Part shown: positions 43,653 to 62,159 of the stretch, piece by piece | Layout of the letters: every line of letters begins with the position of its first letter | How positions within the stretch are numbered: position 1 is the first letter of the stretch | From: Stappia indica | GTDB lineage: Bacteria; Pseudomonadota; Alphaproteobacteria; Rhizobiales; Stappiaceae | Length of the DNA stretch: 64,000 nt | Direction: 5' to 3' | Assembly (NCBI RefSeq): GCF_020177335.1 | Contig: NZ_JAIVMG010000008.1 | Span: 62,001 to 126,000 of the forward strand | Notes under the pieces: generated by a model | Seen by the model: only the letters and a program-made list of their open reading frames with translations | What the model was told of the DNA's origin: nothing | Database searches by the model: none | Program-made: the position numbers and the translations under genes

Positions 43653-44441
43653 TTAGCTCGCTTGCTGCTTGCTGAAGCGCAGCAGCAGGATCTTCCAGAG
43701 GAAACGCATCACGCCGCTGGTGTAGCGCTTGTAGAGCCGTTTCGGCTCGTGCAGCAGGCGGAACACCCATTCAAGGCCCGCCTGGCGCATCAGTTTCGGC
43801 GCGCGTATGACCTCGCCGGCGGTGAAATCGAACAGGGCGCCCACCCCAAGAACAACCGGCGGGTCGAGCTCCGCGCGCAGGGCATCCATCAGGAACTCCT
43901 GCTTTGGATTGCCGAGGGCAACCAGCAGGATATCGGCCTTTGCCGCATTGATCGCCGCGACGATATCCGCCCGGTCACCGTCCTGGAAATAGCCGTCGCG
44001 CCAGCCGCAGATCGTGACATGCGGATGGCTGAGGGCGAAGGCATCGGCCGCCCGCGCCACCACATCCGGCCGGGCGCCGAGCAGATAGACCCGGGTTCCG
44101 GCCGGCGCGGCGTTCAGCAGCGCGGGCACGAAATCCGTCCCGTTGAGGTTCTCGGCAAAGCCCTCGCCTGTGAGCACGCGCGCGCCGATCCTGGCGCCGA
44201 TCCCGTCGTTGAGCACATGGCAGCGGGTGAGTGTCTCGGCGAAGGCGGGATCGTCCATCGCCAGGAGCAGCCCATGCGCATTGGCAAAGGCCACGTTGAT
44301 CTTGGTGCGCGAGGCCATGCAGTCGAGCAGCATGGCAATGGCCTCGGACCGGGTCTGCCGCGAGATGGCGACGGGGCCGATCCGGGCATGGCCTGATGTC
44401 ATTGGTCGGTCATCTAGCGTGGCATCGGCCATCGGCATCAT
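43653..44441 (-). CDS. WecG/TagA/CpsF-family glycosyltransferase
   Basis: 262 residues. The GT26 blocks INVAFANAHGLLLAMDDPAF, DGIGARIGARVL, YLLGARPDVVARA and LVALGNPKQEFLMD are clear. Enzymes of this family add an N-acetylmannosamine-type or glucuronic-type sugar onto a lipid-linked intermediate at the inner membrane. A basic C-terminal segment with aromatic residues (LHEPKRLYKRYTSGVMRFLW) probably binds the membrane. Starts at 44441 or, with a better-placed AGGA, 44432. It is the first gene of the exopolysaccharide locus, divergent from the chain-length gene. Confidence 0.9.
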   Translation of the reverse strand: MMPMADATLDDRPMTSGHARIGPVAISRQTRSEAIAMLLDCMASRTKINVAFANAHGLLLAMDDPAFAETLTRCHVLNDGIGARIGARVLTGEGFAENLNGTDFVPALLNAAPAGTRVYLLGARPDVVARAADAFALSHPHVTICGWRDGYFQDGDRADIVAAINAAKADILLVALGNPKQEFLMDALRAELDPPVVLGVGALFDFTAGEVIRAPKLMRQAGLEWVFRLLHEPKRLYKRYTSGVMRFLWKILLLRFSKQQAS

Positions 44442-44735
44442 CCTGTGCGCTGCAATTGGCCGAGAGGTACGCTATCAAGGGTTAATGGTTGCGAAACCCT
44501 CGGATCAGACTGATCGTAGATTGAACAAACCGCTAACGCATCATCGTATCCGCAAGTGTGAATGAACCGCCGGGCGTTCGCGACACGCGCGCCGGGTGGC
44601 TTTCTTTTTGTCAAATATTAACCATGGTTTGCAAGGGTCGGTTGGTAATCGGGTCAGGCCGCCACCGATTGGTCTTTACTGGCGCGGCAGCACAGGGTCC
44701 GATCTGATCCCGAAGGAAGCAAGCGGTTCGCTTTG
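44442..44735. other. Regulatory gap at the head of the exopolysaccharide locus
   Basis: 294 bases between divergent genes, AT-rich around 44470-44560 and 44600-44650. It contains the perfect palindrome AACCATGGTT (44620-44629) and a related stretch TTAATGGTTGCGAAACCC near 44481. Two promoters must lie here, and the repeated element may be an operator. No short coding frame is convincing. Confidence 0.35.
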
Positions 44736-46844: not shown

Positions 46845-48195
46845 CGCTGTGGCCGTGCCCATGGCGGCGCGGCTACCGGCCGGGCCGGGAGGCTTCGGTG
46901 CCGCCGGGCGGCATGACATCACCGTCCTGTGGCAGCGGGCGGTGTTCGCGGTGGTGATCGCCGCGCTGACGTTCAATTGCTTCCTGGCCTTCGTCAACAC
47001 CCGGATCACCGGCGTTACCGCCAGCCATGTCATGCTGGTGGAGGTGGCGCTGATCGGCATCGCCGCGGTGCTGGCGCTGAACCGTCATGCCGGTTTCTAT
47101 GTGCTGCTGCTGGTCTATCTCGCGTATATGGCGCTGATTCTCGCGCTCCGGCCGGAGCTGGACCTGAAGGCCATCCGCGACGCGCTGATCCCGATCGTGT
47201 TCTATTTCGTTGGCCGCGGCATCACCGATATCAAGGTGGCCGACCGGTTGGTGATGCTGAGCGCCGGCGTCGTCATTGCCGTCGGCCTGTTCGAGTATTT
47301 CCTGCTGGATACCTTCATCGCCAATATCAACATCCTCGACTACTACATCGCCCGCGGTACGGTGGAGGAGGGGGAGAACTTCAACGAAGGATCGAGCCTG
47401 TTCATCAGCGGCGTGCGCCCGGAAGGGCGTAACTTTTTGCCCTTCCTTGGCCTGCACCGGGTGTCGTCGGTGTTTCTCGAACCGGTGTCGATGGGCAATT
47501 ACGGTGCGTTCCTGTTCATGTGGGGCCTGTTTCGCAAGGACATGGCCCGCCGCAAGCTCCTGTTTGCGGCCTCCGCCGCCGTGATCATCCTTGGCGACGC
47601 GCGGTTCGGCATGTTCGTTTGCCTGGCCTTCGTCGGCACCATCGCGGTCTACCGCTTTGTCCCGCGCGTGGTCTGGTGGCTGGTGCCGGCCATGTTCATC
47701 CTGCTGCTGGTGCTTTATGGCACCTCCACCAGCCAGTTGACCTGGGAAGATAATCTCGCCGGCCGCTGGTTCCAGTCCTCGCGCCTGTTCCTTGAGCTGG
47801 ATGCCGCCGGTCTGTTCGGGATTTCCGCCGATGAAGTGTTTCTCGGCGACAGCGGCTATGGCTACACCCTGCAGCAGATCGGCATGGTCGGTGTCGGCGC
47901 GCTCTGGTCGCTGTTCATCTTTGCCAGGGTGCGGTCACCCGATGCATGGCGTCTGCGGGCGATGGTGGTGACCTATATCTGCCTGCTGATGGTGGTCTCG
48001 AATTCACTTTATTCGATCAAGACCGCCGCCCTGCTCTGGGTCTGTGTCGGCGCCGCCGATGTGTGGCCGGGGTTTGGCCGGCGGGCAACCAGCGACCCGG
48101 ACACCGGCGCATCCCGCGCCGAGGCGGCGCCGCAAGACCCCGCTGCTTCCGCTGGCGATCAGCGGCCGGTGACCTCCCGGTACAGCGCCTCGTAG
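46825..48195 (+). CDS. Polytopic membrane protein, probable polysaccharide polymerase
   Basis: 456 residues with about ten membrane helices. A conserved-looking loop lies between helices (EEGENFNEGSSLFISGVRPE, then RVSSVFLEPVSMGNYGAF). Such Glu-Pro-rich loops next to a helix are seen in Wzy-type polymerases and O-antigen ligase relatives. Its position after the chain-length gene and near the flippase supports a Wzy role. It begins inside the preceding gene (20-base overlap). The last 36 residues are hydrophilic, and its end overlaps the convergent glycosyltransferase gene by 37 bases. Confidence 0.75.
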   Translation: MLPSRPDAVAVPMAARLPAGPGGFGAAGRHDITVLWQRAVFAVVIAALTFNCFLAFVNTRITGVTASHVMLVEVALIGIAAVLALNRHAGFYVLLLVYLAYMALILALRPELDLKAIRDALIPIVFYFVGRGITDIKVADRLVMLSAGVVIAVGLFEYFLLDTFIANINILDYYIARGTVEEGENFNEGSSLFISGVRPEGRNFLPFLGLHRVSSVFLEPVSMGNYGAFLFMWGLFRKDMARRKLLFAASAAVIILGDARFGMFVCLAFVGTIAVYRFVPRVVWWLVPAMFILLLVLYGTSTSQLTWEDNLAGRWFQSSRLFLELDAAGLFGISADEVFLGDSGYGYTLQQIGMVGVGALWSLFIFARVRSPDAWRLRAMVVTYICLLMVVSNSLYSIKTAALLWVCVGAADVWPGFGRRATSDPDTGASRAEAAPQDPAASAGDQRPVTSRYSAS

Positions 48196-49343
48196 CGCTG
48201 GGCGGTGCTGGCCCAGGAATAGCCGCCGGCGGTCTCCATCGCTTGCGCGCGCACGGCGGCGGGCGCGGCGCAAAGCCGGTCGATGGTCGCCTCGATCTGC
48301 GCCGCCGCGCCGGCCGGGTCGGTGAAATCGGCAAGCGAGACAAGCTCATGCTTGGCCGCGAAGGCGCGGAAAGCGGCGTTCCCCTCGACCACCGGCAGCA
48401 AGCCGGCGCTCATCGCCTCGATCAGGGCAAGGCCGAAGCCTTCATAGGTTGAGGCACTGGCGAACAGCGACGCGCGGGCGATGATGGCGCGCATTTCCTC
48501 ATCCGAGGGGCCGACATGCAGGCGAACCGAGCCGGACAGGCCGCGGGTGTCGATCATCTCCGTGATATCCGCCGCGCTCCAGTCGAACGGCGTGCCGATG
48601 ATGTCCAGCGTCCAGGCCCCGTCGCGAGCGGTCAGCGCCTGCATGGCATCGAGCAGCCGGTCGACCCGCTTATTCTTCGACAGGCGGCCGATGGTCACGA
48701 GCCCCTTTGTCGGCGCCGGCGCGCTGGCACCGGCGAACTTGTCGATATCGACACCGTTTTCGACAAGCCGCACCTTTTTGGGCGCGATGGTCTGGAAGGT
48801 GTCGTAGTCGCTCTGGCTGCAACAGGCGATGGCGCCGTAGCGGTTCGCCGAAAAGCGGGTCAGCGACTGGAACCAGACCTTTTTCAAGGCCGAGAAGTCG
48901 GCGCTATGGAAAAAGCCGCCATGGGTGGTGGCGAGCATCGGCTTGCGATGCCAGACGCGGGTCAGGGCCAGCGCGTCGAAGAAGAAGTCGATGGCGTGGA
49001 CATGGACGAGATCCGCATCGGCGATGGCACCGAGAATGCCGGGGGTGAGCGGGTAGCGGGTCGATCCATGGAACGGCAGGCGGATCACTTCGACCCCGTC
49101 GAGGACCTCATGAGCGGGCAGGGCTTTGTCACTGGAACGGAAGACCCGATCGAGGGTCACGACCTTGATGCGGGCGAAACGTCCCCGTTGCCGGGCCACC
49201 AGGCTGCTGACGAAATCCTCCAGTCCGCCGACGCTGGGTCGGTACTGGCGCACCACATGCACCAGTACATCGGTCTTGAAAACCGATGGCTCCGGGGTCG
49301 GCGTGACAGGGAGGGGCCATGCGGGAGAAAGCTCAGGTGTCAT
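48159..49343 (-). CDS. GT4-family glycosyltransferase
   Basis: 394 residues. The N-terminal half has VVRQYRPSVGGLEDFVSSLV, and the C-terminal half has the retaining GT4 signature in ASTYEGFGLALIEAMSAG (EX7E). It transfers a sugar from a nucleotide donor to the growing lipid-linked unit on the cytoplasmic face. I start at ATG 49343, one base after the stop of the deacetylase gene; upstream codons in the same frame lie inside that gene. Its end overlaps the convergent polymerase gene. Confidence 0.9.
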   Translation of the reverse strand: MTPELSPAWPLPVTPTPEPSVFKTDVLVHVVRQYRPSVGGLEDFVSSLVARQRGRFARIKVVTLDRVFRSSDKALPAHEVLDGVEVIRLPFHGSTRYPLTPGILGAIADADLVHVHAIDFFFDALALTRVWHRKPMLATTHGGFFHSADFSALKKVWFQSLTRFSANRYGAIACCSQSDYDTFQTIAPKKVRLVENGVDIDKFAGASAPAPTKGLVTIGRLSKNKRVDRLLDAMQALTARDGAWTLDIIGTPFDWSAADITEMIDTRGLSGSVRLHVGPSDEEMRAIIARASLFASASTYEGFGLALIEAMSAGLLPVVEGNAAFRAFAAKHELVSLADFTDPAGAAAQIEATIDRLCAAPAAVRAQAMETAGGYSWASTAQRYEALYREVTGR

Positions 49344-49344
49344 G

Positions 49345-50430
49345 TCAGGCCTTCGCCATATGGGCGACAGGATTGCCGCCTCGGGTTGCCATGGCCCGGA
49401 AGACGCCATGGATGCCACAAACCGCATAGCTCGCCCCATCCTCGGCATATTCCGCGTTCTGGCGCGGCAACAGGAACGGCTGGTCAAGATGCTGGGGGAA
49501 AAGGCAGCCCGGCTCGGTGGTGACTGCGGAGCGGAAACCGAGCTCCCGGACGATATCCGCCTCGCGGTCGCCGGTCAGGGACGGCGCGCCATAGGGATAG
49601 GCGAAATGGGCGACCTCACGTTGCAAGGTGCTCTCCAGAAAGCGTTTGTTGGCGGCGATGTCGTCATGCACGCCCTCCGCCTCGATCAGCGACAGGGCGC
49701 GGTGGGTGGTGCCATGCGCGCCGATCTCGACGAGCGGATGCCGGTCGATCTCGATCAGTTCCTGTTCGTTGAGGGCGGCGTCATCGAGCAGCGCGGGAAG
49801 GGAAATGCCATGGGCGCTGAAGGTGTCGGCAAGGTGCTCGGTCCGGTGGAAATCCTGCCAGACCCAGGCGGTGGCCCGGCGCAGCGCCGCCGTCTTGCTG
49901 GCAATATCCGGGCAGTGATAGCGCACGCCCATCGGCTCGATGGTCACCTCGTCCCGTTCGAGGAACAGGTTACGCAGACCGAGCCACCAGGCATTGACCG
50001 TGCGGTTGACCATGTCGGTCGGCACGTAGATCGTCGCCGGGGCCCCGTGCCGCTCCATCACCGGAAGCGCGAGGTCGCGGTTCGAGCGATAGCCATCGTC
50101 GAAGGTGAGCACGGCGAAGGGACGCGCCTTCGGGTCGGCAAGGCGCTGCAAGGCCTCGTCCAGCGTGACGATGTCCCGGCCGCTGCGTCTCAGATAACCA
50201 AGGGTTGCGTCGAAGTCCTCGATGCGGCAGCCCTGATCGAGCTGGGCGACCGGATCTTCCGTGAAATCGTGATACATCAGAATGACGCCGCGCCCGCCAT
50301 AGAGCGTACCGACCAGCGACGAGGCGCCGCTGAAACGCAAGGCGCGCAGTCCGAGGGTCTTGATGCGCCGCTTCACCTTTTCTGCAAGGCTCAGGCTGGG
50401 GGTGACGCTGTCTTGCGAAACCGTGTCCAC
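49345..50430 (-). CDS. Polysaccharide deacetylase (NodB/CE4 family)
   Basis: 361 residues. The CE4 motifs are present: motif 1 as VLTFDDGYRSN (metal and base Asp), motif 2 as EIGAHGTTHRALS, and FAYPYGAPS as motif 3. A preceding GVILMYHDFTEDP is common in exopolysaccharide deacetylases. It probably removes acetyl groups from an N-acetylated sugar of the polymer. I start at GTG 50430, which has AAAGGGAGAG before it. No signal peptide is evident, so it may act on the cytoplasmic lipid-linked intermediate. Confidence 0.88.
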   Translation of the reverse strand: MDTVSQDSVTPSLSLAEKVKRRIKTLGLRALRFSGASSLVGTLYGGRGVILMYHDFTEDPVAQLDQGCRIEDFDATLGYLRRSGRDIVTLDEALQRLADPKARPFAVLTFDDGYRSNRDLALPVMERHGAPATIYVPTDMVNRTVNAWWLGLRNLFLERDEVTIEPMGVRYHCPDIASKTAALRRATAWVWQDFHRTEHLADTFSAHGISLPALLDDAALNEQELIEIDRHPLVEIGAHGTTHRALSLIEAEGVHDDIAANKRFLESTLQREVAHFAYPYGAPSLTGDREADIVRELGFRSAVTTEPGCLFPQHLDQPFLLPRQNAEYAEDGASYAVCGIHGVFRAMATRGGNPVAHMAKA

Positions 50431-50746
50431 TGCTCTCCCTTTCCGGCTGGCGCCATGCAGCTGACGGCGAATGGTGCGGGTGTCATCTTGGCGAAACGGT
50501 AGGCTGTGCACGTGAACAGCAGGTTGAGGCCGCGCGATCTCGCAGCCAGATCCTTGCGATGGTAAACAAACCCTTGCACCGTGGGAGCCCGCCGTGCGCC
50601 GCACCGGGGGCGGAAAGGTCTGGTTAATCTCAAATCGGCAAATCGCTCCGCAAGAGCGCTTGCACGTGCCGCAGATACCTCGGCTTAAGGTCTCGCGGCT
50701 ATGGGTTGTAGCCGTGCCTGCAATAAGAATGGAAAGTCCGGTCTCG
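50431..50746. other. Divergent promoter region in the exopolysaccharide locus
   Basis: 316 bases between the deacetylase (minus) and GT4 (plus) genes. Two short perfect inverted repeats are seen: CGCTC/GAGCG (around 50645-50659) and GGCTA/TAGCC (50697-50713). The stretch near 50560-50640 is GTTAA-containing and less GC-rich. I see no coding frame. It should contain two promoters. Confidence 0.3.
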
Positions 50747-51967
50747 ATGCGCATCCTCATGCCCTGCGCCGCATTCCCGCCTTTTGCGGATGGTGGCGGC
50801 CCGATCTCTTCGCTTCTGTTGGCGAAGATGCTGGTCGCGAGTGGTCATGACGTGCGGGTGGTGAATGTCGGCGATGAGGACCGGCATGAGGTCTATGAAG
50901 GGGTTCCGGTCCACCGGATCAAGAGCCCCAACATCTACTGGAACTACTACACGCCGCAGCCGGCCTGGCGAAAGATGGTCTGGCATGCGCTGGAAAATGG
51001 CAATCCGCGCGCCTATCTGGCCATGCGCCGCGAGATCGCCGATTTCAAACCCGACGTCATGCTGACGGTCAGCATCGAGAACATCAACGTCGCCTCCTGG
51101 GGCGCGGCGCGGGCCGCCGGGGTGCCGGTCGCCCATACGGTTTTCAGTGCCTTCATGATGTGCTGGAACGGCATCATGCAGAAGCAGGGGCGCAACTGCG
51201 CCGGCCAATGCACCTCCTGCTACCTGACCTCGTTCGGGCGGCGCCAGTTTTCCCGGCTGGTCGATGCGGTGATCGGCGAATCGCGCGATATCGTGCAACG
51301 TCATCTGGATGAGGGATATTTCCCCAACGCCGCCAGCTACCGCGTCCCGGCAGTGATCGACGCGATACATGCGGTCAAGCCGCGCAAGTTCCCTGAGGAT
51401 CGGCCGTTTCGCGTCGGTTTCTTCGGTGTGCAGACCCGTTTCAAGGGATTTGCCGTCCTGGCGGAGGCCGCGCGGGCCCTCGCGGGCAACGACAAGGTGG
51501 AATTCGTGATCGGAGGCACCGGACGGGACGCCTTCGCCGAGCAGACGCGGGCGGTGTTCCCGCCGGAGAAAACCCGGTTTCTCGGTTGGACGAGCGCGGA
51601 GGAGTTCTTTCCCGAGGTCGATGTGCTGGTCTATCCGACCATCGGTCGCGAGGCTTTCGGCCGGGCGACGATCGAGGCCTTTTCCCATGCGGTGCCGGTG
51701 ATTTCCTCCAGCATCGGCGGTGTCGCGGAGAACATCGCGCCTGGGAAGAATGGCTTCCATGCGGCGGTGGGCGATGCCGAGGCGCTGAAGTCCTGCATCG
51801 AACGGATGGCAAACGCGCCAGAGCTTTATGAACGGTTGTCGCAAGGGGCTCTGAAATCGGCGGGGGACTATCTGGAACCGGTGGTGAGCCGGGCGCTGGA
51901 GGATGCCTTGTCGGAGACGCTGGCGCGCAAGGGACAGCCGAAGGGTACTCTGGAGGAGGCGATATGA
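50747..51967 (+). CDS. GT4-family glycosyltransferase
   Basis: 406 residues. The N-terminal MRILMPCAAFPPFADGGGPI has the GT-B glycine-rich acceptor site; the C-terminal signature is EAFGRATIEAFSHAVPVISS. A cysteine group in KQGRNCAGQCTSC interrupts the N-terminal domain, as in some GT4 enzymes of exopolysaccharide loci. It probably adds a sugar to the repeat unit. ATG 50747 fits the family start; ATG 50729 is possible. The end overlaps the flippase start by 4 bases. Confidence 0.9.
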   Translation: MRILMPCAAFPPFADGGGPISSLLLAKMLVASGHDVRVVNVGDEDRHEVYEGVPVHRIKSPNIYWNYYTPQPAWRKMVWHALENGNPRAYLAMRREIADFKPDVMLTVSIENINVASWGAARAAGVPVAHTVFSAFMMCWNGIMQKQGRNCAGQCTSCYLTSFGRRQFSRLVDAVIGESRDIVQRHLDEGYFPNAASYRVPAVIDAIHAVKPRKFPEDRPFRVGFFGVQTRFKGFAVLAEAARALAGNDKVEFVIGGTGRDAFAEQTRAVFPPEKTRFLGWTSAEEFFPEVDVLVYPTIGREAFGRATIEAFSHAVPVISSSIGGVAENIAPGKNGFHAAVGDAEALKSCIERMANAPELYERLSQGALKSAGDYLEPVVSRALEDALSETLARKGQPKGTLEEAI

Positions 51968-53349
51968 TCGAACGCCTGCGCGTGTTGGTGCTGCGGACCG
52001 ATGCCCGGCGTCTCTTCTGGTCGCTGTGCAGCCGCTTCGGCAGCACGGTCCTCAGTTTCGCGGTGCTGTTTGCCGCCAGCCATTCGCTCCAGACCAGCGA
52101 ATACGGCCTTTATATCTTCCTGTTTTCGGTGGGCACCTCGCTGGGTCTGATCTGTACGTTTGGCCAGCATATTCTGCTGGTCAAGCACTTCCGCCTGAAG
52201 GATCATCAGCGCGGCAAGACCAATCAGGCCCTGCTGCGGGTCAATGCCTTCTGGCTGGCAATCGGGTGTGGCGGGCAGTTGCTGGCCGCACTTCTTCTGT
52301 TTCTGTCCCCCTGGGACCTGCCAAGCCCCTACCGCGAACTGCCGGTGGCGCTCCTGTTCGGCGCGATCTTCACCATCAGCGAGTATTTCCAGAACTACTT
52401 CCGCATCCATGGGCAAATCGTTCTTGCGCTGGTTCCACGCGAAAACCTGTGGCGGATCGCCTCCGCCATCTGTCTTCCGGCGGTGGCCTTCGCGGGGCTG
52501 CTGTCGAGCGGGGCGGCGGCAACGGAGCTGGTGACAGGCCTCTTGTTCATCGTCACCGGCTATCAGGCGGTGCGCTTCGCCCAGCAGGAGGGGCTGTGGT
52601 TCCTGCGCGAACCGCAGGTGGCGGCGGACCGGAAGACGTTGCGCATCTGGCGGCAGGAGAGTGCGAATTTCACCGCCAACGGCTTCTTCAACTCCGCTGC
52701 GGCGTATTTCGAAACCATCCTGATCGGCGTGGCAATCGGCCTGGAAGCGGCGGCCTTCTATTTCGTCGCCTATCGTATCTCCATGCTCCTGACCCTGCCG
52801 GTGCTGGCCATCGATACCGTGGGCGTGCCATTGATTTCGGCGCGCTTTCAGGAGGATGACAAGGTCGGCGCGCAGAAGGTGGTGGCGATGCTCTCCGCCG
52901 GAAGCTTCGCCTTGGCGCTGATCGGTGGCGTGTTCCTGTATTTCACCGGACCGTTCGTGCTGCATCTGTTCGACCCGGCCTTTGTCGAGCATTCCGGCGT
53001 CTTGCTCATCCTCTGCCTGTCGGCGATTACCCATGCCTTCTTCGGGCCAGGTACCTGGGTGATCATGATCGGCGGCGGGGAGCGCTATCTCTTGATCCTG
53101 CGCTGCGTGGTGTTCGGCTTTTATGTGCTGTTGCTGTTCGGCCTTGGCAAATGGCTGGGACTGACGGGTATCGCCATTGCCGGATGGGCGCAGCTTCTCG
53201 CCGTGCATCTGTTCAGCCGCCGCTGGGTCATGCGGCGCTGGCAGGTGGACAACATGGCGACGGCGATCCTGGGTCTGCGTCGGCGGGATGCCGAAGCCGC
53301 GAGCGCGGCGGTGCCCATCTCCGCGAGGGACGGCGATGCGCCGGTCTGA
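51964..53349 (+). CDS. Wzx-like polysaccharide flippase
   Basis: 461 residues with about 12 membrane helices. SRFGSTVLSFAVLFAASHSL is a typical first helix, and later GLEAAAFYFVAYRISMLLTL and HAFFGPGTWVIMIGGGERY match the MOP/PST flippase family. It moves the lipid-linked repeat unit across the inner membrane for polymerisation. Coupled to the upstream GT4 gene by ATGA. The last 40 residues are hydrophilic and overlap the next gene start. Confidence 0.87.
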   Translation: MIERLRVLVLRTDARRLFWSLCSRFGSTVLSFAVLFAASHSLQTSEYGLYIFLFSVGTSLGLICTFGQHILLVKHFRLKDHQRGKTNQALLRVNAFWLAIGCGGQLLAALLLFLSPWDLPSPYRELPVALLFGAIFTISEYFQNYFRIHGQIVLALVPRENLWRIASAICLPAVAFAGLLSSGAAATELVTGLLFIVTGYQAVRFAQQEGLWFLREPQVAADRKTLRIWRQESANFTANGFFNSAAAYFETILIGVAIGLEAAAFYFVAYRISMLLTLPVLAIDTVGVPLISARFQEDDKVGAQKVVAMLSAGSFALALIGGVFLYFTGPFVLHLFDPAFVEHSGVLLILCLSAITHAFFGPGTWVIMIGGGERYLLILRCVVFGFYVLLLFGLGKWLGLTGIAIAGWAQLLAVHLFSRRWVMRRWQVDNMATAILGLRRRDAEAASAAVPISARDGDAPV

Positions 53350-54448
53350 CACCCGCGCGGCTCTCTCGTCGGCTGTTCGAAAAGCTGCGGTGGCCATGCG
53401 GGCGGGTTTGGCCGGTGGGCTGTCGCTGGCGCTTTCCGTCTTGCCCGTTTCGGCGGAGTGCCTGCGCGGTGCCAATGTCGCCGGGGGAGAATTCGGCGAG
53501 CTGTCCGGGCAATACGCGCACAGCTACATCTACCCCTCCCGCGCCACCTTCGACTATCTGCGCCGCAAGGGAATGAACGTGGCGCGCTTGCCGTTCCGGT
53601 GGGAGCGGCTTCAGCCCGAGCTGAACGCGCCGCTTGAGGAAGAGGAGTTTCAGCGGCTGGACAGAGCGGTGTCCGAGGCAAGCCATCTGGGGCTGACCGT
53701 CATTCTCGACCCGCATAACTACGCGAAATACCGGGAGGAGATGATCGGCTCGGACGGCGCTCCGGTCTCCGCCTTCGCCGACTTCTGGGCCCGGCTCGCC
53801 GCCCGCTATGCGGGCCGGGAGGATGTTGTCTTCCTGCTGATGAACGAGCCGGCGAACATCACGGCGGCCGATTGGCTGCCGGCGGTCAATGCCGCGCTGG
53901 CGGCGATCCGAGACAGCGGGGCGGACAATCTGGTGATGGTACCAGGGACGATCTGGACAGGGGCGTCCCACTGGTTCGACCCGCAGGACGGCGGCTCGAA
54001 TGCCGAGGTGCTACGCAAGGTGGTCGACCCGCAAGGGCGCTTCGTCTTTGATGTGCATCAGTATCTCGATGCGGATTTTTCCGGAACGAATGCCGGTTGC
54101 GAACGGGCGGAGGACGCGGTCGTGGCGCTGGAGCGCCTGACAGGCTGGCTGGAGGATACCGGCAATGCCGCGTTTCTGGGAGAGTTCGGCGGTGATGCCA
54201 GCGTTGAGTGCTACAAGGGCTTGATCAGGATGGCGTCTCTGGTCAACAGCCGCCCGGATGTCTGGGCGGGCTGGGCCTATTGGGCCGCCGGCGACTGGTG
54301 GGGCGACTATCCGCTGTCGATCCAGCCGGGCGAAGATGGCGCCGACCGTCCGCAAATGGTGGCGATCGAAGGGTTGATCGAGCGGCGCAGCGCCGGGGAG
54401 AAAGCCTGCGCCGCTCTTGTGCGGCGCAACGGGGAGGGGGAGCGATGA
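53336..54448 (+). CDS. Secreted glycoside hydrolase family 5 (cellulase-like)
   Basis: 370 residues. A signal peptide follows a basic N-terminus (MRAGLAGGLSLALSVLPVSA, residues about 21-40). The catalytic domain has GMNVARLPFRWERLQPE, the acid/base Glu in LLMNEPANITAAD and the nucleophile Glu in AFLGEFGGD, all GH5. It probably trims or releases the exopolysaccharide in the periplasm, a common role for endoglucanases in such loci. ATG 53336 follows GAGGGA and lies inside the end of the flippase gene. Confidence 0.88.
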   Translation: MRRSDTRAALSSAVRKAAVAMRAGLAGGLSLALSVLPVSAECLRGANVAGGEFGELSGQYAHSYIYPSRATFDYLRRKGMNVARLPFRWERLQPELNAPLEEEEFQRLDRAVSEASHLGLTVILDPHNYAKYREEMIGSDGAPVSAFADFWARLAARYAGREDVVFLLMNEPANITAADWLPAVNAALAAIRDSGADNLVMVPGTIWTGASHWFDPQDGGSNAEVLRKVVDPQGRFVFDVHQYLDADFSGTNAGCERAEDAVVALERLTGWLEDTGNAAFLGEFGGDASVECYKGLIRMASLVNSRPDVWAGWAYWAAGDWWGDYPLSIQPGEDGADRPQMVAIEGLIERRSAGEKACAALVRRNGEGER

Positions 54449-56259
54449 CAGGGAAAGGGGCGCGGCTTGGGCGATTGACGCCGCTTGTCATCGAGGATTG
54501 CCCTGGGCTGCTTCATGAGGCCGATGGCGACATCGGCGTCGTGATCTGCGACGGTTGGGGCTACGAGGGGCTTTGTGCGCGACGGAGCTGGCGGATTCTC
54601 GCCGACCAGCTCGCTGGGGCCGGCTATCCTGTACTGCGGTTCGACTGGCCGGGCATGGGCGATGCGCTTGCCGATCCTGGGGACGTGACCGCCCTTGCCC
54701 ACCTGGACCGGGCGCTCGACCGGGCCTGCGCGGTCATGGCCGGGCGGGAGGGGATCCGCGCGGTGGCGCTGATCGGCCTCGGGCTGGGGGCGGCGCTGGC
54801 CGTACGCCGCGCCGAGGCGCACCCGCAAGAGGTTGCCGGGCTGGTGCTGCTGGCACCGCTGGTCAAGGGCAAGAGCTTCCTGCGCGAGGTGCAGGCACAG
54901 GCGCTGATGATTGGTCAGGTCACCGGCGTGCCACCGGAAACCGGCCCGGGGGAAGCGTTGTCGATTGCCGGTCTGGGCATGGCGCAGGCGCTGGCGGACG
55001 AAATCCGCGCGCTCGATCTCTCCGGGCTCGACTTGCGTGAGGACATGCCCCGGCTGATCCTGGCGCGGGCGGGTAAGGCGGCGGAGGCGAAGCTGGCCGA
55101 CCGATTGGCGGGTTCCCCCAGCGGTACGGCCGCGATCTTCGCCGGATACGACGATCTGATGATCGATCCGACCGGTTCGATGCCCCCGTTTCAGGACTTC
55201 CAGCGGGTTCTCGCCTGGTTTGGCGAGGTTTTGCCACCCTCTCGTCACGGCAAGCCGGTCGGAGAGGCGGCGGGAGCAACCAAGAGCCGGCTGGAGACCG
55301 AAACCTTCCACGAGACGCCTTGCGTTTTCGGGCCGAATGCCGGGCTGGTGGGGGTCTGGTGCGAACCGAGCGCTGGGCAGCATGGCCGGCCTGTGCTGCT
55401 TCTCAATGCCGGCGCGACGCCGCGAGCGGGCTGGGCGCGCGGCACGGCCGAGATGGCGCGGGCGCTGGCCGGGCGGGGGATCGCCTCCTTGCGCTTCGAC
55501 GGTGCGGATTTTGGGGACAGCCGGCCGCACCCGCAAGGGCCGGCGATCATGCATTACCATGCAAACCAGCGTGCGGACCTCTCCGCCGCTCTCGATCTTC
55601 TGTGCGACCGCTACGGATCCGGCGCTGTCGTGGTCGGCGGTTGCGGCGGCGCCTATCTGGCTCTCAATGGCGCGGTGGCCGATGAGCGGATCGCCCATGT
55701 GATCGCGGTCAACCTGCAACGGTTTCTCTGGGATCCGCGCGATGACGTGGCCGAGGTGCTGCGCTATGGCCATGCGGCCCCGTCCGGGTATGGCCGCAAG
55801 CTTTTCAGCCGGGACGGCTGGCGAGCGCTGTGGCGCCGGCGGGCCGAGGTACCAGCGCTGGCGCTTTATCTGACGCGAACGCTGTATCGGCGGGGGGAAC
55901 GGCGGTTCGCGCCCTATCTCTTCGGCCTGCTGCCCTTTTCCCGCCTCTATCGCCGGGTGCACCGCAATCTGTCGGTCTTACGCGACCGGCCCGTCCGGGT
56001 CGAACTCGTCTACAGCGAGGGCGATTCCGGTCTCGAACAACTGCGCACCTTCTTCGGCAAGGACAGTCGCCGCCTTGGCGCGTATCCGAATATCGAAATG
56101 GTCCTGATTGCCGATGCCGACCACAATCTCACGCCTAGGGCGGCACGAGCCGTCCTGCTGGAGCGGATCGTTGCGGCAGCCGCGTTGGAGACGGCCGGCG
56201 ATGATCGCCGGCCAGCCGGTGCGCAGGATCGGGATGCAGCGGATCAGCCCGCCGCGTAG
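54445..56259 (+). CDS. Tandem alpha/beta-hydrolase with altered nucleophile elbows
   Basis: 604 residues holding two alpha/beta-hydrolase domains in a row, about 1-270 and 300-570. In the first, the elbow that normally reads GxSxG is GLGLG (residues 111-115), so the nucleophile Ser is a Gly and the domain should be inactive. In the second, the elbow is GGCGG with Cys400 as nucleophile; a DADHN near residue 560 could supply the catalytic Asp/His. Such paired hydrolases resemble the exosortase-associated hydrolases of exopolysaccharide loci, but no exosortase is seen. Coupled to the GH5 gene by ATGA. Cytoplasmic; substrate unknown, possibly a thioester or acyl sugar. Confidence 0.82.
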   Translation: MTGKGARLGRLTPLVIEDCPGLLHEADGDIGVVICDGWGYEGLCARRSWRILADQLAGAGYPVLRFDWPGMGDALADPGDVTALAHLDRALDRACAVMAGREGIRAVALIGLGLGAALAVRRAEAHPQEVAGLVLLAPLVKGKSFLREVQAQALMIGQVTGVPPETGPGEALSIAGLGMAQALADEIRALDLSGLDLREDMPRLILARAGKAAEAKLADRLAGSPSGTAAIFAGYDDLMIDPTGSMPPFQDFQRVLAWFGEVLPPSRHGKPVGEAAGATKSRLETETFHETPCVFGPNAGLVGVWCEPSAGQHGRPVLLLNAGATPRAGWARGTAEMARALAGRGIASLRFDGADFGDSRPHPQGPAIMHYHANQRADLSAALDLLCDRYGSGAVVVGGCGGAYLALNGAVADERIAHVIAVNLQRFLWDPRDDVAEVLRYGHAAPSGYGRKLFSRDGWRALWRRRAEVPALALYLTRTLYRRGERRFAPYLFGLLPFSRLYRRVHRNLSVLRDRPVRVELVYSEGDSGLEQLRTFFGKDSRRLGAYPNIEMVLIADADHNLTPRAARAVLLERIVAAAALETAGDDRRPAGAQDRDAADQPAA

Positions 56260-58739
56260 GGGCCGGGTTTTCCGCCAAGGGGCGTGACCGTGCCGCGCGG
56301 GGCCGGCTTGTCGGGGCTCTCCTCCGCGCCTTGCCGGGGGGTGAGGGCGATGCGTTTTTCCGCCCCCGGAGCCAGATGGAACCAGTTGTCTTCGGGCAGG
56401 TAGTTTGCATCCTCGATCGACACCGACGGGGCCAACCGGTCGGTCGACAGCACCAGCATGAAGCCGCCGTCTTCCGCCTGCTCCACCCGTGCCGTGATCG
56501 CCGCGTCCCGGCGCAGGGTGGCGCGGCCAAGCGGGAAGTGGAAGGCTTCGTCGGCGGTCTTGCTGCTCTGCCGGTCGACAAGGCGGACATGCACGCAGTC
56601 ATGAGACGGCGGGCCGAAACGGAAGGCATGGGTCACGTCGAAAAACGCGCCCAGCAGGTCGGTTGCCGCGAGGCGCCGGGTGCCGCGCCCCTCCAGATCG
56701 ACGTCCAGTGCGCCGCTCGCCACCGGCAGCGTCCCCTCGCCAAGGCAGGTGAGTTCCACCCGCAAGGATCGCGTTTCCGCGCCGTCGTTGACAAGGTGAA
56801 TATCGAGACCGTTGGTGCCCTCGTCGGTAAGCATCACCGCCACCGGGCGGAAGGCGCGGCGCAGGCCATACCAGGCCGATTTCGGCAGGCCGGTGGCGTC
56901 GATCACACCCCAGCCGGCACCGGGAACGAGATCCTGCAGCGTCCAGACAAGCGCGCCGTGGCAGGAGGAGCCGTGTCGGCGCCATTCCGCGACGGTCGCT
57001 TCCATCACCTCGGCGATGGCCGCCCGGCCATGGTCGAGATAGGCCGCTGGGTCGCCATAGCGCAGGTCGAGCGGCTCGATGTTGTAGAGCTGCTTGACGT
57101 AATGGTCGCGAATGTCCTCGAAGTCCCAGCCGACGGAGCGGTCACGCGGCACGCTGCGTTTCCAGTCCGGGTCATGGCCCGGGCCGCCGGGAAGGTGGGC
57201 GGTGACGGTTGCCGCCTCCGGCACATTGGCGAAGGCCAGGCATTCGGTGGTGAACCGCACGTTGGCCCGGCGCGCATCCTCCAGGGGCCGGCGATAGGCG
57301 CCAACGCCGTAGTAATGAGCGATGCCGGCATTGGGAGAAAACGGCATCGCGCCGCCGCTCGGCGAATTGGGAACATAGATGACGTCAGGCCGGACAGCGG
57401 TGACAGCGGCGGGCAGGATTTCCTCGGTCAGCGGTCCGCGCCAGCGGCTCTCGGGCAGGCCGAGCATCGCCCCTTGCTGGTACATTTCGCTGCCGCCGCA
57501 CACCACGACCAACGAAGGGGAGGCGGAGACCGCGCCAAGCAGGCTTTCCGTTTCCCGGGTCACCACCTCGCGGAAACTGTCATCGCCCGCCGGGTAGTCG
57601 AAATTGGCGAAGGGAAGATCCTGCCAGACCATCAGGCCCAGTGCGTCGCACAGCTCGAAAAACGCCGGACCTTCCGGGGCCATGGTGCCGCCGATCCGCA
57701 GCATGTTCATGTTGCCGGCAACGGCGCGTTCCAGCCAGGGGCGATAGTCGTCGTGACCGGAGGGCAGGCGCAGAATATCGGCGGTGGTCCAGGCGGCGCC
57801 GCGGCAGAACACCGGAACGCCGTTGACCTTGAGCGCAAAGCCCTCCCCATCCGCGCCGTGATCGACCTCGATACGGCGGAAGCCGGTACGGCCGAGCGGA
57901 ACCACGGTGTCGCCCATCCGCAAGGCGATGTCATGCAGATACGGCGTGCCGTGGGTGTGTGGCCACCAGGGCTCGATGGCCGGCAGCAGCATCTCGCCCC
58001 GGTAGCGCCCCGGAGTGTCTTCCTCATCGAGCGGCGTTTCCCAGCCGGCACAGGCGAGCAGCGGCGCCTCGTCCATCGGCGGCAGCGTCAGGGCAACTTC
58101 CAGCCGGCCGGTTCCATCCTCGCCGAGCCGGCTGGCGATGGTGAGATCGCGGACAAGCGGCCCATCGTCTGCCATCAGGCGGATCGGCCGCCACGGACCG
58201 ACCGCGTGGATTTCGGGGCACCAGCCGGGCATGTGACCGAACAAGGTGGTGCGCAGCAGGCGCAGGCCCTGGCTGGTCGCCAGCCGGGTGCGCCAGCGCG
58301 CGCGCGGGCCGCGCTTTTCCAGATGCGGCGCCAGTGCGCGGAAGCACAGCACCAACTCGGCCGGGGCCTGAAGGTCGAGGGCGATGTCGCGCGGCGCATA
58401 CATGGAGTTGGAAATCAGCACGGGCGTGCCGTCGACCCAGGCTTCGCAGATGGTGGCGAGCCCCTCGAACCGCAAACGGTGCCCACCGGGGCGGATCGGC
58501 TGGATCGTGGCCCGGTACCAGACATCCTTGTCATGCAGGGGTTCCGGTGCCTTCGGATCGAAGCGACCGGCAGCGGTCAGCGCCTCGGCGGCTGTGCCGG
58601 GCACCGGCGCGGGGGCCCAGTCGGCCGATGGATCAAGCTCCTCCGGTCCGGACCAGGCGCCGGCGGGCGCAAGGGTCATCGACCAAGTGGCGACAAGCAG
58701 GGTGTCCGCCGTCGTTTCCAGGGAGAGTCCATCCATCAT
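56244..58739 (-). CDS. Glycoside hydrolase family 2, beta-mannosidase-like
   Basis: 831 residues without a signal peptide. The N-terminal sugar-binding domain (GHRLRFEGLATICEAWVDGT) is followed by an immunoglobulin-like domain and the TIM barrel from about residue 300 (GFALKVNGVPVFCRGAAW). The acid/base region reads VCGGSEMYQQ, where beta-mannosidases have an NEN-type motif, with the Glu kept; the nucleophile Glu is in RFTTECLAF. A long all-beta C-terminal part follows. It is the last gene of the carrier-protein operon. Its end overlaps the convergent hydrolase gene by 16 bases. Function may be turnover or editing of a mannose-containing repeat unit. Confidence 0.88.
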   Translation of the reverse strand: MMDGLSLETTADTLLVATWSMTLAPAGAWSGPEELDPSADWAPAPVPGTAAEALTAAGRFDPKAPEPLHDKDVWYRATIQPIRPGGHRLRFEGLATICEAWVDGTPVLISNSMYAPRDIALDLQAPAELVLCFRALAPHLEKRGPRARWRTRLATSQGLRLLRTTLFGHMPGWCPEIHAVGPWRPIRLMADDGPLVRDLTIASRLGEDGTGRLEVALTLPPMDEAPLLACAGWETPLDEEDTPGRYRGEMLLPAIEPWWPHTHGTPYLHDIALRMGDTVVPLGRTGFRRIEVDHGADGEGFALKVNGVPVFCRGAAWTTADILRLPSGHDDYRPWLERAVAGNMNMLRIGGTMAPEGPAFFELCDALGLMVWQDLPFANFDYPAGDDSFREVVTRETESLLGAVSASPSLVVVCGGSEMYQQGAMLGLPESRWRGPLTEEILPAAVTAVRPDVIYVPNSPSGGAMPFSPNAGIAHYYGVGAYRRPLEDARRANVRFTTECLAFANVPEAATVTAHLPGGPGHDPDWKRSVPRDRSVGWDFEDIRDHYVKQLYNIEPLDLRYGDPAAYLDHGRAAIAEVMEATVAEWRRHGSSCHGALVWTLQDLVPGAGWGVIDATGLPKSAWYGLRRAFRPVAVMLTDEGTNGLDIHLVNDGAETRSLRVELTCLGEGTLPVASGALDVDLEGRGTRRLAATDLLGAFFDVTHAFRFGPPSHDCVHVRLVDRQSSKTADEAFHFPLGRATLRRDAAITARVEQAEDGGFMLVLSTDRLAPSVSIEDANYLPEDNWFHLAPGAEKRIALTPRQGAEESPDKPAPRGTVTPLGGKPGPYAAG

Positions 58740-58784
58740 GCGGGGCCTGCCTTCAGGGTCTTTGTCGTCATCACGTGCCGTGGG

Positions 58785-59810
58785 TCAGGCGGCGCGTCCG
58801 GCTGCGTCGGTGGAAAGGGGGGGCAGTTTTTCTTCCAGCCCCTGCATCAGCCGGTCCCAGGCAGCCGCCGGCGGCTGCAGCGCTTCCGTCAGGCCGGTAA
58901 AGCGCTTGCGCGCAAGCGCCCGCGCCAGCAGGAACTGGAGGCTCTTGCAGCTCTCGGCAATGCCGCGTGCCGCCTCCGCTTCACCGGCAAGCTGCCCGTC
59001 CGGGAAAAGCCAGGCCAGATGCTCGCCCGCCAGCTCGAAATTCGCCCCCGCCTGTCGCAAGGTGTTGAAGGCGTATTTGTGGAAGTCGTCGAAGGGACGG
59101 TCCGCCAACGCCTCGATGTCGGCGGCAAAGCGCTCCGCATAGGCGGTGAACGGGTTGGCGTCCGGCCGGCGCCGAAAGTGCCCTGCGAGCAGCCGCACGG
59201 CGAGCGGGCGCAGGTCCGCAGCCGGAGCTGTCTCCGCCGGCAGCTTGGCGAATTCGGTGTAGGGCAGAAAGGGCAAGGGCTGAGCAAAGGCGCCGCGCTG
59301 GAACACCCCGTCGAAATCGTCCCCCTCAAGCGAGAACAGCCCGCCATTGTGGAAATAGGTCATCCGGCGGTCGGCGGGATCGAGCGCGGTGATCGCCACC
59401 GTCGTCTTGCCGTGCTCGCTGCGATAGCTGACCCCATGGGTGTCGGGCAGGAAATAGCTGTCGACCTCGACCAGGCACAGCCGGCCACGTGCGATCTGCT
59501 CCGCCACATGGCTTTCGGTCCGGTCGTAGATTGCCAGTTCCTGCGCCCGGATGCCGTAAAGGGTTTCCAGATCCTCCAGCGGCACCTTGAAGAAGGTGAA
59601 CTGGTCCCCTTCGAAATCCTGCGTCAGGGTGAAGCCGAGCATCGCCTCGGGCGTCAGCCCGAGCGCGTGCAGCACCTCGATCCACAGATCGACGTAGCAG
59701 TTGGTTTCCGGCCAGATGCGTGTGGCCGCATGCAGGGCGTGCGGCTGGTAGCCATCGGGGCGAAGGGCGGCAAGGCGGGTGATCATCGCGAGCGTGTCCG
59801 TTATCCCCAC
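58785..59810 (-). CDS. DUF1839 protein, possible BtrH-like acyltransferase
   Basis: 341 residues, from GTG 59810. The N-terminal half has [18 protein letters not shown] (Cys38), [17 protein letters not shown], then [20 protein letters not shown] with His133 and Asp144 in ITALD. This Cys-His-Asp order in a papain-like frame resembles the BtrH N-terminal domain, which transfers an aminoacyl group from a carrier protein to an aminoglycoside. The C-terminal half is helical and not recognised. It lies between the amino acid:carrier-protein ligase (10-base overlap) and the GH2 gene. DUF1839 is a likely family name; the transferase role is inference. Confidence 0.72.
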
Positions 59811-60709
59811 AGCGCCTTGCGCACCGGCTCGGGCCAGTCGGCGGTGTCGAGCCCGTGGCGGGCGAAGAGGGCAAGGGCGATCCGCTCCAGGCCGAAGCCG
59901 ACACAGGCCGTGTGGGCGGTCTCCCCGTTGGCAGTCTTTAGGCCCCAGGTCTGGCCGAAGTGATCCTGATGGTAGTTGAAGCTGAGGCAGGCGGTCTTGG
60001 CGGTGGCCGAGGTCACCGGGATCAGCAGCTCGAACTTCAGTTTCTGGTCGCGCTGGTTGTTGCCGAGCATCTTGCCGGCGCGGCCGAAGAATGGGTCGTT
60101 GGCCGTGTCCAGCTCCACATCGAGACCGACAGCGGCGATCAGCTTGCTGCCGCGCTCCATCCAGTCGCTGCGGAAGGCCATGACGTCATCCGGCGTGCCG
60201 ATGCGCACGAACTCGCGCATGCGGAACAGCTGCATCCGCGCCGGGTCCTTGGAGGGCTCGTGACGGAAGCAATAGGACTGCAGGTCGAAAAGACCGCCGC
60301 CCTCGGGCAGCGGGCCGCGCTTGGCGATGGTCGGATAGAGCGGATAGCAGGCCGCCGGGGTCAGCACCACGTCGGTGGCTTCCTGCTTGCCGGTCCAGTC
60401 GTCGCCTTCCGCCATGCACTGCAGCAGGTTGACATGGTCGAGCTCGCAGCCGCAGAAGCTGTGCACCGTACCGGCGAGCTGCGGGAAGCTCTTCATGTAG
60501 CCCGAGCCTTCGAAATGGGCCCGGTTCATGCCCGGCGGAAAGCGGATCACCTCGGCCGTCGCCTCGGGTGCATGGCGGGCGATCAGGGCTTCGAACCGGG
60601 CGATCACGTCTTCGAAGGCACCGCTGCGGCCATAAAGGCCGTCGACGCCGGTGTCGATCAGCAGGCCGGCGTCGAACAGCCGGTCGAGCAAGTTGGTCTG
60701 CATGTCCAT
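59801..60709 (-). CDS. Amino acid:[carrier protein] ligase (seryl-tRNA-synthetase-like)
   Basis: 302 residues with a class II synthetase catalytic core but no tRNA-binding domain. Motif 2 is [20 protein letters not shown] and motif 3 is [12 protein letters not shown]. The zinc-site ligands typical of this group are seen as Cys121, Glu166 and Cys269. Known members from Bradyrhizobium and Agrobacterium activate glycine or alanine with ATP and load it on the phosphopantetheine of a small carrier protein. The carrier gene is three genes upstream in this operon. ATG 60709 ([12 protein letters not shown]) follows AAGGG. The amino acid cannot be told by eye. Confidence 0.88.
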
Positions 60710-60720
60710 GTCGGTACCCT

Positions 60721-61902
60721 TCACGCCAAAAGGCTGGTGTCTTGCTTGTGGATCAGCAGCATGGTCGACGTATTGCCGAGAATGCGGTCGTTGGAGATCA
60801 TCAACTGGGCGGAATGGGCATCGCGCAGATGCCGTCCCAGACTGTAGGGCGTGCCGTTCTTGTAGCCCAGGATGCCGCAGATCAGCATGCAATGGTTGAT
60901 GATCGTCAGGATGTTCTGCGAACTGGCGATCTTGAGGTTGTTCATCGCCACCGCAAAGCTCATGGCGGACAGCTTGTCCTCGTCGCCCTTGGCTGTCGCG
61001 TATTGCGTGAGGGCGGCAATGATGCTGGCCTTGACCCCCTGCAGGAGGGATGAGGCCTCGGCAACGCGCAAGGCGCCGGGCGGCATTGCCTCGGGGCTGC
61101 GGCGCGCTGCGGCGCGTACGAAGGCCTGGGCCCGGGCGAAGGCATCGGCGGCGATGCCGTACCAGACGGCACTCCACAGAATATGCGCATGGGCGAGCAT
61201 CGACTGGGCGGCGATCTCGGCAAAGGGGCGGGGCAGGATCTGCTGCGCCGGCGCCTCTCCCTTGAAGACATAGCCGTCGGAGCAGGTGCCGCGCATGCCC
61301 AGCGCATCCCAGGTCTGGGTCTTGTCCAGCGTGTACTGGTCCTTCAGGAACACGGTCATCACCTGGTCGCTCGGCGCGGCATCCGCATGAGCGCGGGAGG
61401 TGATCAGGATCGCATCCGCCTGATCGCCATAGGAAATGACGGTGGCGTCCTTTTCCAGGCGGCAGGTGTCGCCGTCGACCTCGATCGCGCAGATCGAGTT
61501 GCGCAGGTTGCCGCCGATACCGCCTTCCGTGGTGGCGGAGCCGAGCAGCAGTTGCTCCCCGGCCACGCGCGACATGAACGCCTCATGCCAGCCGGCGCCG
61601 CTGCCATGGGAGACAAGGCTGGACACCTTGATCTGATGCATGGCGAACACCATGGCCGCCGCCGAGCAGCCCTTGCCGAGGGTGGTGCAGATCTCGGCGA
61701 TCTCCAGCACCGAAACCCCTTCACCGCCCTGGGCGGTCGGGATCTGGATCCCCAGGAGCCGCTCACTCCGCATGGCGGCAACCGCTTCGGCGGGGAACCG
61801 CCCCTCGGCATCGACCTGATCGGCATGTTCGGCGGCAATGGCGGCGACACGCTTCGCCCGGTCCATCAACGCCAGCGGTGCGACCGCGCCCTGGATGGTC
61901 AT
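60721..61902 (-). CDS. Acyl-CoA-dehydrogenase-like flavoprotein
   Basis: 393 residues of the acyl-CoA dehydrogenase fold: N-terminal helical domain ([20 protein letters not shown]), middle beta domain ([36 protein letters not shown]), and C-terminal helical domain ending [19 protein letters not shown]. The usual Glu-Gly-Thr catalytic block near the C-terminus is absent (SNDRILGNT). Its start overlaps the carrier-protein stop (ATGA), and the ligase follows 11 bases later. Flavoproteins of this fold can oxidise aminoacyl groups held on carrier proteins, as in prolyl-carrier dehydrogenation; that role is inferred here. Confidence 0.85.
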
Positions 61903-62159
61903 CACGCGGCCTGCTGGTCTTTCGACAGTTCCGTCACCACTTCGACGATGGTCGCAATGGTGGAAAATGTCTTGCGGTTGAGGAGGTTTTCCGGGAACTC
62001 GATGTCGAACTCTTCCTCGATCGCCAGCATCAGCTGGACCGAGGCGAAGGAGGACAGGCCGGCGGCATAAAGGTCGCTGTCTTCGCCAAGGGTGGCCGCG
62101 TCGACGGGGAGCTTGCCGTGTTGCGCCAGAATCGTTCGAATGGTGTCGGCAGTCGCCAT
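61902..62159 (-). CDS. Acyl/aminoacyl carrier protein
   Basis: 85 residues, acidic, in the acyl-carrier-protein fold. The phosphopantetheine site is DLYAAGLSSFASVQLML, where Ser37 takes the place of the Ser of the usual DSL and the Asp before it is replaced by Ser. The C-terminal helices (IEEEFDIEFPENLL) are typical. It is the first gene of a five-gene minus-strand operon and is the expected partner of the ligase at 59801-60709. It may instead serve fatty-acid-like chemistry, but the ligase makes the aminoacyl role more likely. Confidence 0.9.
   Translation of the reverse strand: MATADTIRTILAQHGKLPVDAATLGEDSDLYAAGLSSFASVQLMLAIEEEFDIEFPENLLNRKTFSTIATIVEVVTELSKDQQAA

Follow-up and report, generated by a model that had tools for sequence, protein, structure and literature searches.

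A Proposed Carrier-Protein-Dependent Aminoacylation Cassette in Stappia indica with a DUF1839 Protein of Predicted CcbD-like Fold

Introduction

Class II synthetase-like amino acid:[carrier protein] ligases have been reported to load Gly or Ala onto a cognate carrier protein (PMC5370406), and a 2022 review describes the role of the loaded carrier as unknown (PMC9437257). A 2010 note in proof in Biology Direct (PMC2922099) lists a ligase, a carrier, a redox enzyme, the Atu2574 open reading frame, a glycosidase, and liposaccharide genes, and predicts that Atu2574 joins an amino acid, probably monooxygenated, by an amide bond to the amino group of a cell-surface sugar. A comparable transfer is described for the lincosamide synthetase CcbD, which works by a ping-pong mechanism: carrier-bound proline is passed to a Cys and then attacked by the amino group of a thiooctose, while arginines dock the carrier and residues of the neighboring monomer help to bind the sugar (PMC12945683, a 2025 review). 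The DUF1839 family, in turn, has been assigned to the papain-like superfamily; its triad is given as C(T/S)H, and its gene context was taken to suggest glycan processing at the cell wall (PMC10318531). Here we examine a cassette that brings these threads together in a 64,000-nucleotide stretch of Stappia indica (contig NZ_JAIVMG010000008.1, hereafter the window). It encodes a carrier protein, a flavoprotein of acyl-CoA dehydrogenase fold, a ligase, a DUF1839 protein, and a family GH2 glycosidase. The idea that an amino acid is attached to a sugar was already in print in 2010, and the initial annotation of this DNA arrived at it again; what we add is a CcbD/CtaG-like model of DUF1839, the constancy of the GH2 gene, counts that bear on the polysaccharide link in both directions, and the existence of split active and inactive DUF1839 copies.

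The Proposed Pathway and the DUF1839 Protein

We read the cassette as a carrier-protein-dependent aminoacylation pathway and give this reading, as a whole, a probability of about 0.5. The ligase would adenylate a small amino acid, probably Gly or Ala as reported for its homologues, and load it as a thioester on the phosphopantetheine of the carrier. The flavoprotein may then oxidize the carrier-bound aminoacyl group, more likely by oxygenation and perhaps on nitrogen. Judging from its predicted structure, DUF1839 would take the aminoacyl group onto Cys36 and pass it to an amino group in a CcbD-like ping-pong reaction. Gene context points to an amino sugar, or a sugar conjugate bound for an exported polysaccharide or glycoconjugate, as the acceptor, and the GH2 enzyme, often together with a Cys-type double alpha/beta hydrolase, could trim or release the conjugate.

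The window protein is a clear DUF1839 member (PF08893, E 1.7e-129, 432 bits against a gathering score of 22.5). Single-sequence and profile searches of solved structures with it returned nothing convincing, and the predicted structure alone gave a match. An AlphaFold2 (AF2) model built from the window protein and 21 relatives (pLDDT 89.6) found 18 solved chains at E <0.001 (2e-6 to 4e-4) in a Foldseek search, all of them AziU2/U3, CtaG, or CcbD and all aligned near full length (321-369 columns); the next match was cathepsin K at E 0.18. The full-length likeness of the predicted model to the CcbD/CtaG fold comes with E 7e-6 to 4e-4, probability 1.00, and TM 0.53-0.62. In this model, Cys36 opens the first papain helix (36-47), His152 sits at the end of a strand, and a late helix carries Arg295 and Arg299, which recall the carrier-docking arginines of CcbD (residue numbers here and below, including Thr134/Thr135, count from the codon at 59804). 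All four residues are invariant or nearly so among 27 aligned DUF1839 sequences, and 102 of the 105 copies found at 103 loci retain Cys36 as well as His152, a count made on tblastn alignments with no rows dropped. DUF1839 is therefore probably a transferase that moves an aminoacyl group from a carrier to an amine, as far as a predicted structure can tell, and the likeness to CcbD probably extends from the fold to the reaction. The initial annotation had postulated a transfer step; that step now has a candidate enzyme, while the acceptor is suggested by gene context.

DUF1839 might instead form an ester on a hydroxyl group or hydrolyze the thioester, so that the product would be an O-acyl substituent or a released oxidized amino acid. 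Papain-like folds include hydrolases, a swapped C(T/S)H triad has been reported for the family (PMC10318531), and a Cys-type hydrolase is a frequent partner of the cassette. Against this, one of the closest structures, CcbD, is an amide synthetase that works from carrier to amine, its acceptor being an amino sugar, and we regard this alternative as improbable.

Amino Acid Loading and a Possible Oxidation

The first step is well supported by orthology, as the initial annotation had it. The ligase scores 514 bits against NF005479 (cut-off 357), with 4h2w and 3mey (Bll0957, E 2e-96) as its closest solved structures, and the carrier scores 113 bits against NF005480 (cut-off 72) besides matching PF00550 at E 4e-9, with 4h2w_C, an aminoacyl carrier protein, and Atu2571 (2jq4) as its closest solved chains. 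The residues named at the outset are present and invariant among aligned relatives: Ser37 of the carrier in 107 sequences, and Cys121, Glu166, and Cys269 of the ligase, which we take to be zinc ligands, in 120. A weak match of the carrier to the cispentacin carrier AmcB was set aside as a different system; the AmcB pathway uses 2-oxoglutarate and enzymes like those of type II polyketide synthases (PMC10698177).

The second step is harder to read. The N-terminal part of the flavoprotein matches PF02771 (E 8e-11), and Foldseek aligned its AF2 model (pLDDT 89.0) with TdsC/DszC, short-chain acyl-CoA dehydrogenase, and KijD3. Acyl-CoA dehydrogenases, DszC/TdsC monooxygenases, and KijD3/DnmZ come out about equal by profile and by fold, and fold comparison did not tell a dehydrogenase from a monooxygenase. 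A profile alignment inspected by eye places Ile at the usual position of the catalytic Glu near the C terminus of acyl-CoA dehydrogenases. Since this base appears to be missing, we favor an oxygenase, possibly one acting on nitrogen, over an α,β-dehydrogenase. A true dehydrogenase or an inactive protein, with the amino acid transferred without added oxygen, is the least probable of the alternatives that we consider: the predicted fold fits acyl-CoA dehydrogenases as well as monooxygenases and the logic of carrier and DUF1839 needs no oxidation, but the apparent lack of Glu at the usual position, the residues that are invariant across 115 aligned sequences and argue for an active enzyme, and the presence of the nitrososynthases KijD3 and DnmZ alongside acyl-CoA dehydrogenases among the best single-sequence matches all speak against it.

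A Constant Five-Gene Arrangement

Two samples were used to follow the cassette through genomes. At the best 80 of 576 confirmed DUF1839 relatives in genome contigs (the closest named one being DUF1839 of Stappia taiwanensis, 95%), carrier, flavoprotein, ligase, DUF1839, and GH2 are all present in the same order and on the same strand at 80 of 80 loci. Among 398 genomes drawn evenly across the phylum, DUF1839 occurs in 16 and the ligase exceeds its cut-off in 28; scripted gene calls at the loci followed a simple composition rule. In all 16 of the former the five genes again stand in this order, the ligase within ~130 bases of DUF1839 and GH2 adjoining, and the flavoprotein adjoins the ligase in all 28 of the latter. 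Given the shared order and strand and this adjacency, the five-gene arrangement is far from chance. The remaining 12 ligase genomes keep the flavoprotein beside the ligase and have neither DUF1839 nor GH2; protein clusters place a divergent carrier-like gene in 10 of them. From this pattern of 28/28 against 16/28, flavoprotein and ligase form the core, to which DUF1839 and GH2 are an added module.

In the window (Table 1), the initial account of four genes forming one operon on the minus strand, 58785-62159, holds. Its description of overlapping starts applies to the first junction, where the carrier stop and the flavoprotein start have one base in common (TGATG), and fails at the second, where 11 bases separate the flavoprotein stop from the ligase ATG; DUF1839 overlaps the ligase only if the GTG at 59810 is used and not the ATG at 59786. 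A GH2 gene had also been noted at the operon end. It begins 45 bases downstream of the DUF1839 stop, so the operon runs on into it, and its constancy as a member had been missed; the cassette unit is 56244-62159, with GH2 as its fifth gene.

Table 1. Features of the cassette and of the adjoining polysaccharide locus in the window.
Feature	Position	Strand	Assigned by
Aminoacyl carrier protein, 85 aa, phosphopantetheine Ser37	61902..62159	-	PF00550, NF005480
Flavoprotein, acyl-CoA dehydrogenase fold, 393 aa	60721..61902	-	PF02771, AF2 model, Foldseek, profile alignment
Amino acid:[carrier protein] ligase, class II synthetase-like, 302 aa	59801..60709	-	NF005479; 4h2w, 3mey Bll0957
DUF1839 protein, papain-like	58785..59786 (alternative GTG start 59810)	-	PF08893, AF2, Foldseek
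GH2 glycosidase, beta-mannosidase-like, 831 aa	56244..58739	-	PF22666/PF17753, solved beta-mannosidases
Double alpha/beta hydrolase	54436..56259	+	TIGR03100/TIGR03101, below cut-offs
GH5	about 53336-54448	+	Pfam
Flippase	51964-53349	+	Pfam
GT4 glycosyltransferase	50594-51967	+	Pfam
GT4 glycosyltransferase	48159-49487	-	Pfam
Wzz/GNVR	44733-46844	+	Pfam
WecG-type glycosyltransferase	43653-44441	-	Pfam

The GH2 protein matches solved beta-mannosidases with E values down to 3e-45, shows no signal peptide by eye, and has Glu418 and Glu499 invariant across 102 aligned sequences; from the GH2 motif we take these to be the two catalytic residues. Proteins with an internal stop were dropped from the alignment rows, which kept GH2 at 101 of 102 and DUF1839 at 73 of 103 loci with a match. 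Relatives of the double alpha/beta hydrolase are a frequent sixth partner, found at 44 of the 80 cassette loci. Both of its domains occupy one chain, and it resembles the exosortase-A-associated hydrolase pair TIGR03100/TIGR03101 while scoring below both cut-offs. Its second domain carries a GxCxG motif with Cys403, together with Asp562-His563, and Cys403 is present in 55 of 55 aligned rows (kept rows only); most first domains among the aligned relatives are without a Ser nucleophile.

Some further loci deserve mention. A Rhizobium acidisoli plasmid is the lone exception to the GH2 rule and lies outside the two samples: it has only a partial GH2 match and no annotated GH2 gene, and its cassette comes straight after nifHDKENX, fdxB, and the gene of an exopolysaccharide repressor (L101:1334-17500). 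Four surveyed genomes (G077, G113, G030, and G034; loci L164-L167) hold distant ligase relatives that score ~153-175 bits, below the cut-off, in open frames of ~400-480 codons; the fetched stretches contain no match to the flavoprotein, DUF1839, or GH2. These relatives represent another use of the ligase fold. Gene clusters recur upstream of the cassette at 53-54 loci. At one of them (L010:4547-7383), the genes that immediately precede the cassette are identified as EF-P, EpmA, which is itself paralogous to class II synthetases, and a lysine-2,3-aminomutase-like gene; a tie to EF-P was considered and dropped, as the recurrence is probably shared synteny.

The Polysaccharide Neighborhood

The initial annotation had tied the cassette to the polysaccharide genes that it faces, and this link was put into numbers by locating Wza (PF02563) and Wzz (PF02706) in the 16 survey genomes that have DUF1839, with rounded genome sizes and manually transferred coordinates. 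With kinship ignored, the cassette lies within 20 kb of either marker in 7 of 16 genomes against 0.59 expected from genome coverage (P ~6e-7), and within 30 kb again in 7 against 0.85 (P 7e-6). One of the seven near cases at 20 kb is the genome of the window itself, and leaving it out gives 6 of 15; another is borderline at 19.05 kb (G324), and a genome with its loci split over contigs (G255) was counted as not near. Three of the seven belong to family f66, two to f1, and one each to f2 and f4, four families in all. Wzz flanks the cassette on the GH2 side in the window but on the carrier side at L140 and L147, a difference that speaks for repeated association of the cassette with polysaccharide genes.

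Plasmid loci give a mixed picture. In PLSDB gene tables, a Shinella plasmid locus contains GumC and O-antigen ligase genes, and a Mycetohabitans plasmid locus, in annotation that is incomplete, has genes for a lipid A aminoarabinose transferase and for an LTA-synthase-like protein and none for Wza, Wzz, or a flippase; the Cupriavidus plasmid record is without annotation there. In the window itself, cobalamin genes (TP_methylase, CbiD, and CbiJ/CobK; 40713-43635) adjoin the polysaccharide locus.

These surroundings bear on a tentative alternative in which no polymer is decorated: the cassette would make an aminoacylated glycoside or pseudo-glycoside that stays a free small molecule, and polysaccharide genes would lie close by because of shared sugar precursors or shared genomic islands. 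Such a product would suit the presence of the five-gene set on many plasmids (DUF1839 appears in 59 records), beside nif genes or repABC, and the lack of a constant exporter in the loci that were read. It would also suit the structural relatives CcbD, CtaG, and AziU2/U3, since all belong to small-molecule pathways, as we take to be so for CtaG and AziU2/U3. Against it stand the enrichment of polysaccharide markers in four bacterial families and the two arrangements described next, in which DUF1839 copies sit among polysaccharide genes. We consider a free small molecule possible, with the odds against it.

Split and Degenerate DUF1839 Copies

One family of the survey (f66) was taken to be Burkholderiaceae from its named plasmid relatives and was sampled at 150 genomes, 60 of which have DUF1839; the reading of split copies draws on 20 stretches from 16 of its genomes and 8 earlier loci. 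Nine loci hold two DUF1839 copies. At eight of them (L204, L205, L206, L208, L214, L215, L137, and L105), Cys36 (NRH or NQQ for NCY) and the KTT motif are gone from the copy that adjoins the ligase, and the other copy is intact and divergently oriented from ManC. Of these eight loci, 7 also contain Wzc and all 8 the double hydrolase; the ninth locus (L207) is rearranged. G255 has the intact and degenerate kinds on two contigs (L136 and L151). The split copies come from two genera and one Cupriavidus plasmid and may go back to one event. A strict rule is contradicted by L210, of the same genus as split-copy loci, which has a single intact DUF1839 inside the cassette. Four genomes of another genus (L196-L203) combine an intact cassette copy with a degenerate paralogue elsewhere (L197, L199, L201, and L203; VAP or AGP for NCY) that has no cassette gene within the fetched 19 kb.

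Two loci go further. At L211:5031-16017, the carrier, the flavoprotein, and a Cys-less DUF1839 (QRR) stand inside a same-strand run of polysaccharide genes made up of a flippase, a GT2 glycosyltransferase, and the double hydrolase, followed by a Crp-type regulator, a second GT2, Wza, Wzc, and a weak Wzy-like match; neither ligase nor GH2 was found at the locus, and the ligase family has no match anywhere in that genome. At L212:5982-10688, the carrier, flavoprotein, and a Cys-less DUF1839 (NSY) lie beside the double hydrolase, again without ligase or GH2.

A bolder version of the proposal is offered as speculation that we think unlikely to hold in full. DUF1839 would represent a further branch of lincosamide-synthetase-like enzymes that acts on polysaccharides, attaching a carrier-bound, N-oxidized Gly or Ala by an amide bond to an amino sugar in the repeat of an exopolysaccharide, and the active and inactive copies of the Cupriavidus-like lineage would form a pair, one partner placed in the loading cassette and the catalytic one beside the polysaccharide operon.

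Weighing the Proposed Pathway

Several observations count against the aminoacylation pathway as drawn. Its first two enzymes occur without DUF1839 and GH2 in 12 of 28 ligase genomes, so the chemistry of flavoprotein and ligase can serve another end. The polysaccharide link weakens at 10 kb, where only 3 of 16 genomes are near against 0.32 expected (P 0.004, kinship again ignored), and 9 of 16 have no Wza or Wzz inside 20 kb of the cassette. Inspection by eye of the 12 ligase genomes without DUF1839, as a control, found 3 within 20 kb of Wzz (G151, G167, and G271, all of one genus), which means that polysaccharide proximity is not specific to the form with DUF1839. Azospirillum, Caballeronia, and Phyllobacterium plasmid loci show no glycan-assembly genes inside 14 kb in the incomplete PLSDB annotation. 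L211, the locus embedded in polysaccharide genes, has no ligase and carries a DUF1839 devoid of the cysteine. Finally, a profile search of solved chains up to E 10 found no sequence match between DUF1839 and CcbD, and the triad order differs from the Cys-His-Glu of CcbD, with Thr134/Thr135 preceding His152 in sequence. We therefore speak of likeness to CcbD and not of proven membership.

The polysaccharide link is thus enriched and not obligatory. It is supported by the excess of near genomes and by the placement of parts of the cassette in or beside polysaccharide operons. The initial annotation had held that wide co-occurrence of its genes without glycan genes would break the link, and such co-occurrence was found in part, in the 9 genomes just mentioned and in three annotated plasmid genera.

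Comparison with Known Systems

We found no test of the 2010 proposal, and no comparison of DUF1839 with CcbD, in searches of openly licensed papers; texts that mention Atu2573 (PMC11941606) or describe LmbD as without homologues (PMC4351081) were uninformative here. If the aminoacylation pathway is correct, the glycans of Stappia, rhizobia, Azospirillum, and Burkholderiaceae would gain a substituent of a new kind. The predicted DUF1839 structure makes the 2010 idea directly testable: with a CcbD-like carrier-to-amine transferase and an amino sugar acceptor to try, the question becomes a short in vitro assay.

The nearest counterpart is the Agrobacterium Atu2571-Atu2574 cassette, which shares with the one described here its kinds of genes, the proposed amide to an amino sugar, and monooxygenation of the aminoacyl group. 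From its description in PMC2922099, and with Atu2571 among the two closest solved carriers, Atu2574 would be a DUF1839 protein. The two accounts differ in the redox enzyme, called a Rossmann fold in that note and of acyl-CoA dehydrogenase fold here, and in that the available part of the note gives no fold for Atu2574, for which the present DUF1839 model would offer a CcbD/CtaG-like one. The Bradyrhizobium Bll0957 system shares the ligase (E 2e-96 to 3mey) and presumably includes some of the 12 surveyed genomes that have ligase and flavoprotein without DUF1839 or GH2 and, in 10 cases, a divergent carrier-like gene. Lincosamide synthetase (CcbD with the carrier CcbZ-CP) couples an amino acid on its carrier with an amino sugar through an amide, as is proposed for the cassette, and does so with a papain-like Cys enzyme (PMC12945683). 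It relies on an adenylation domain of the nonribosomal peptide synthetase type where the cassette has a class II synthetase, and its Cys-His-Glu triad contrasts with the C(T/S)H reported for DUF1839 (PMC10318531), with which it showed no sequence match in a profile search. Set beside these systems, the Stappia locus is a known, uncharacterized cassette to which a sharper mechanism can now be attached, with a probable small amino acid, a putative oxygenation, and an amino sugar as the suggested acceptor.

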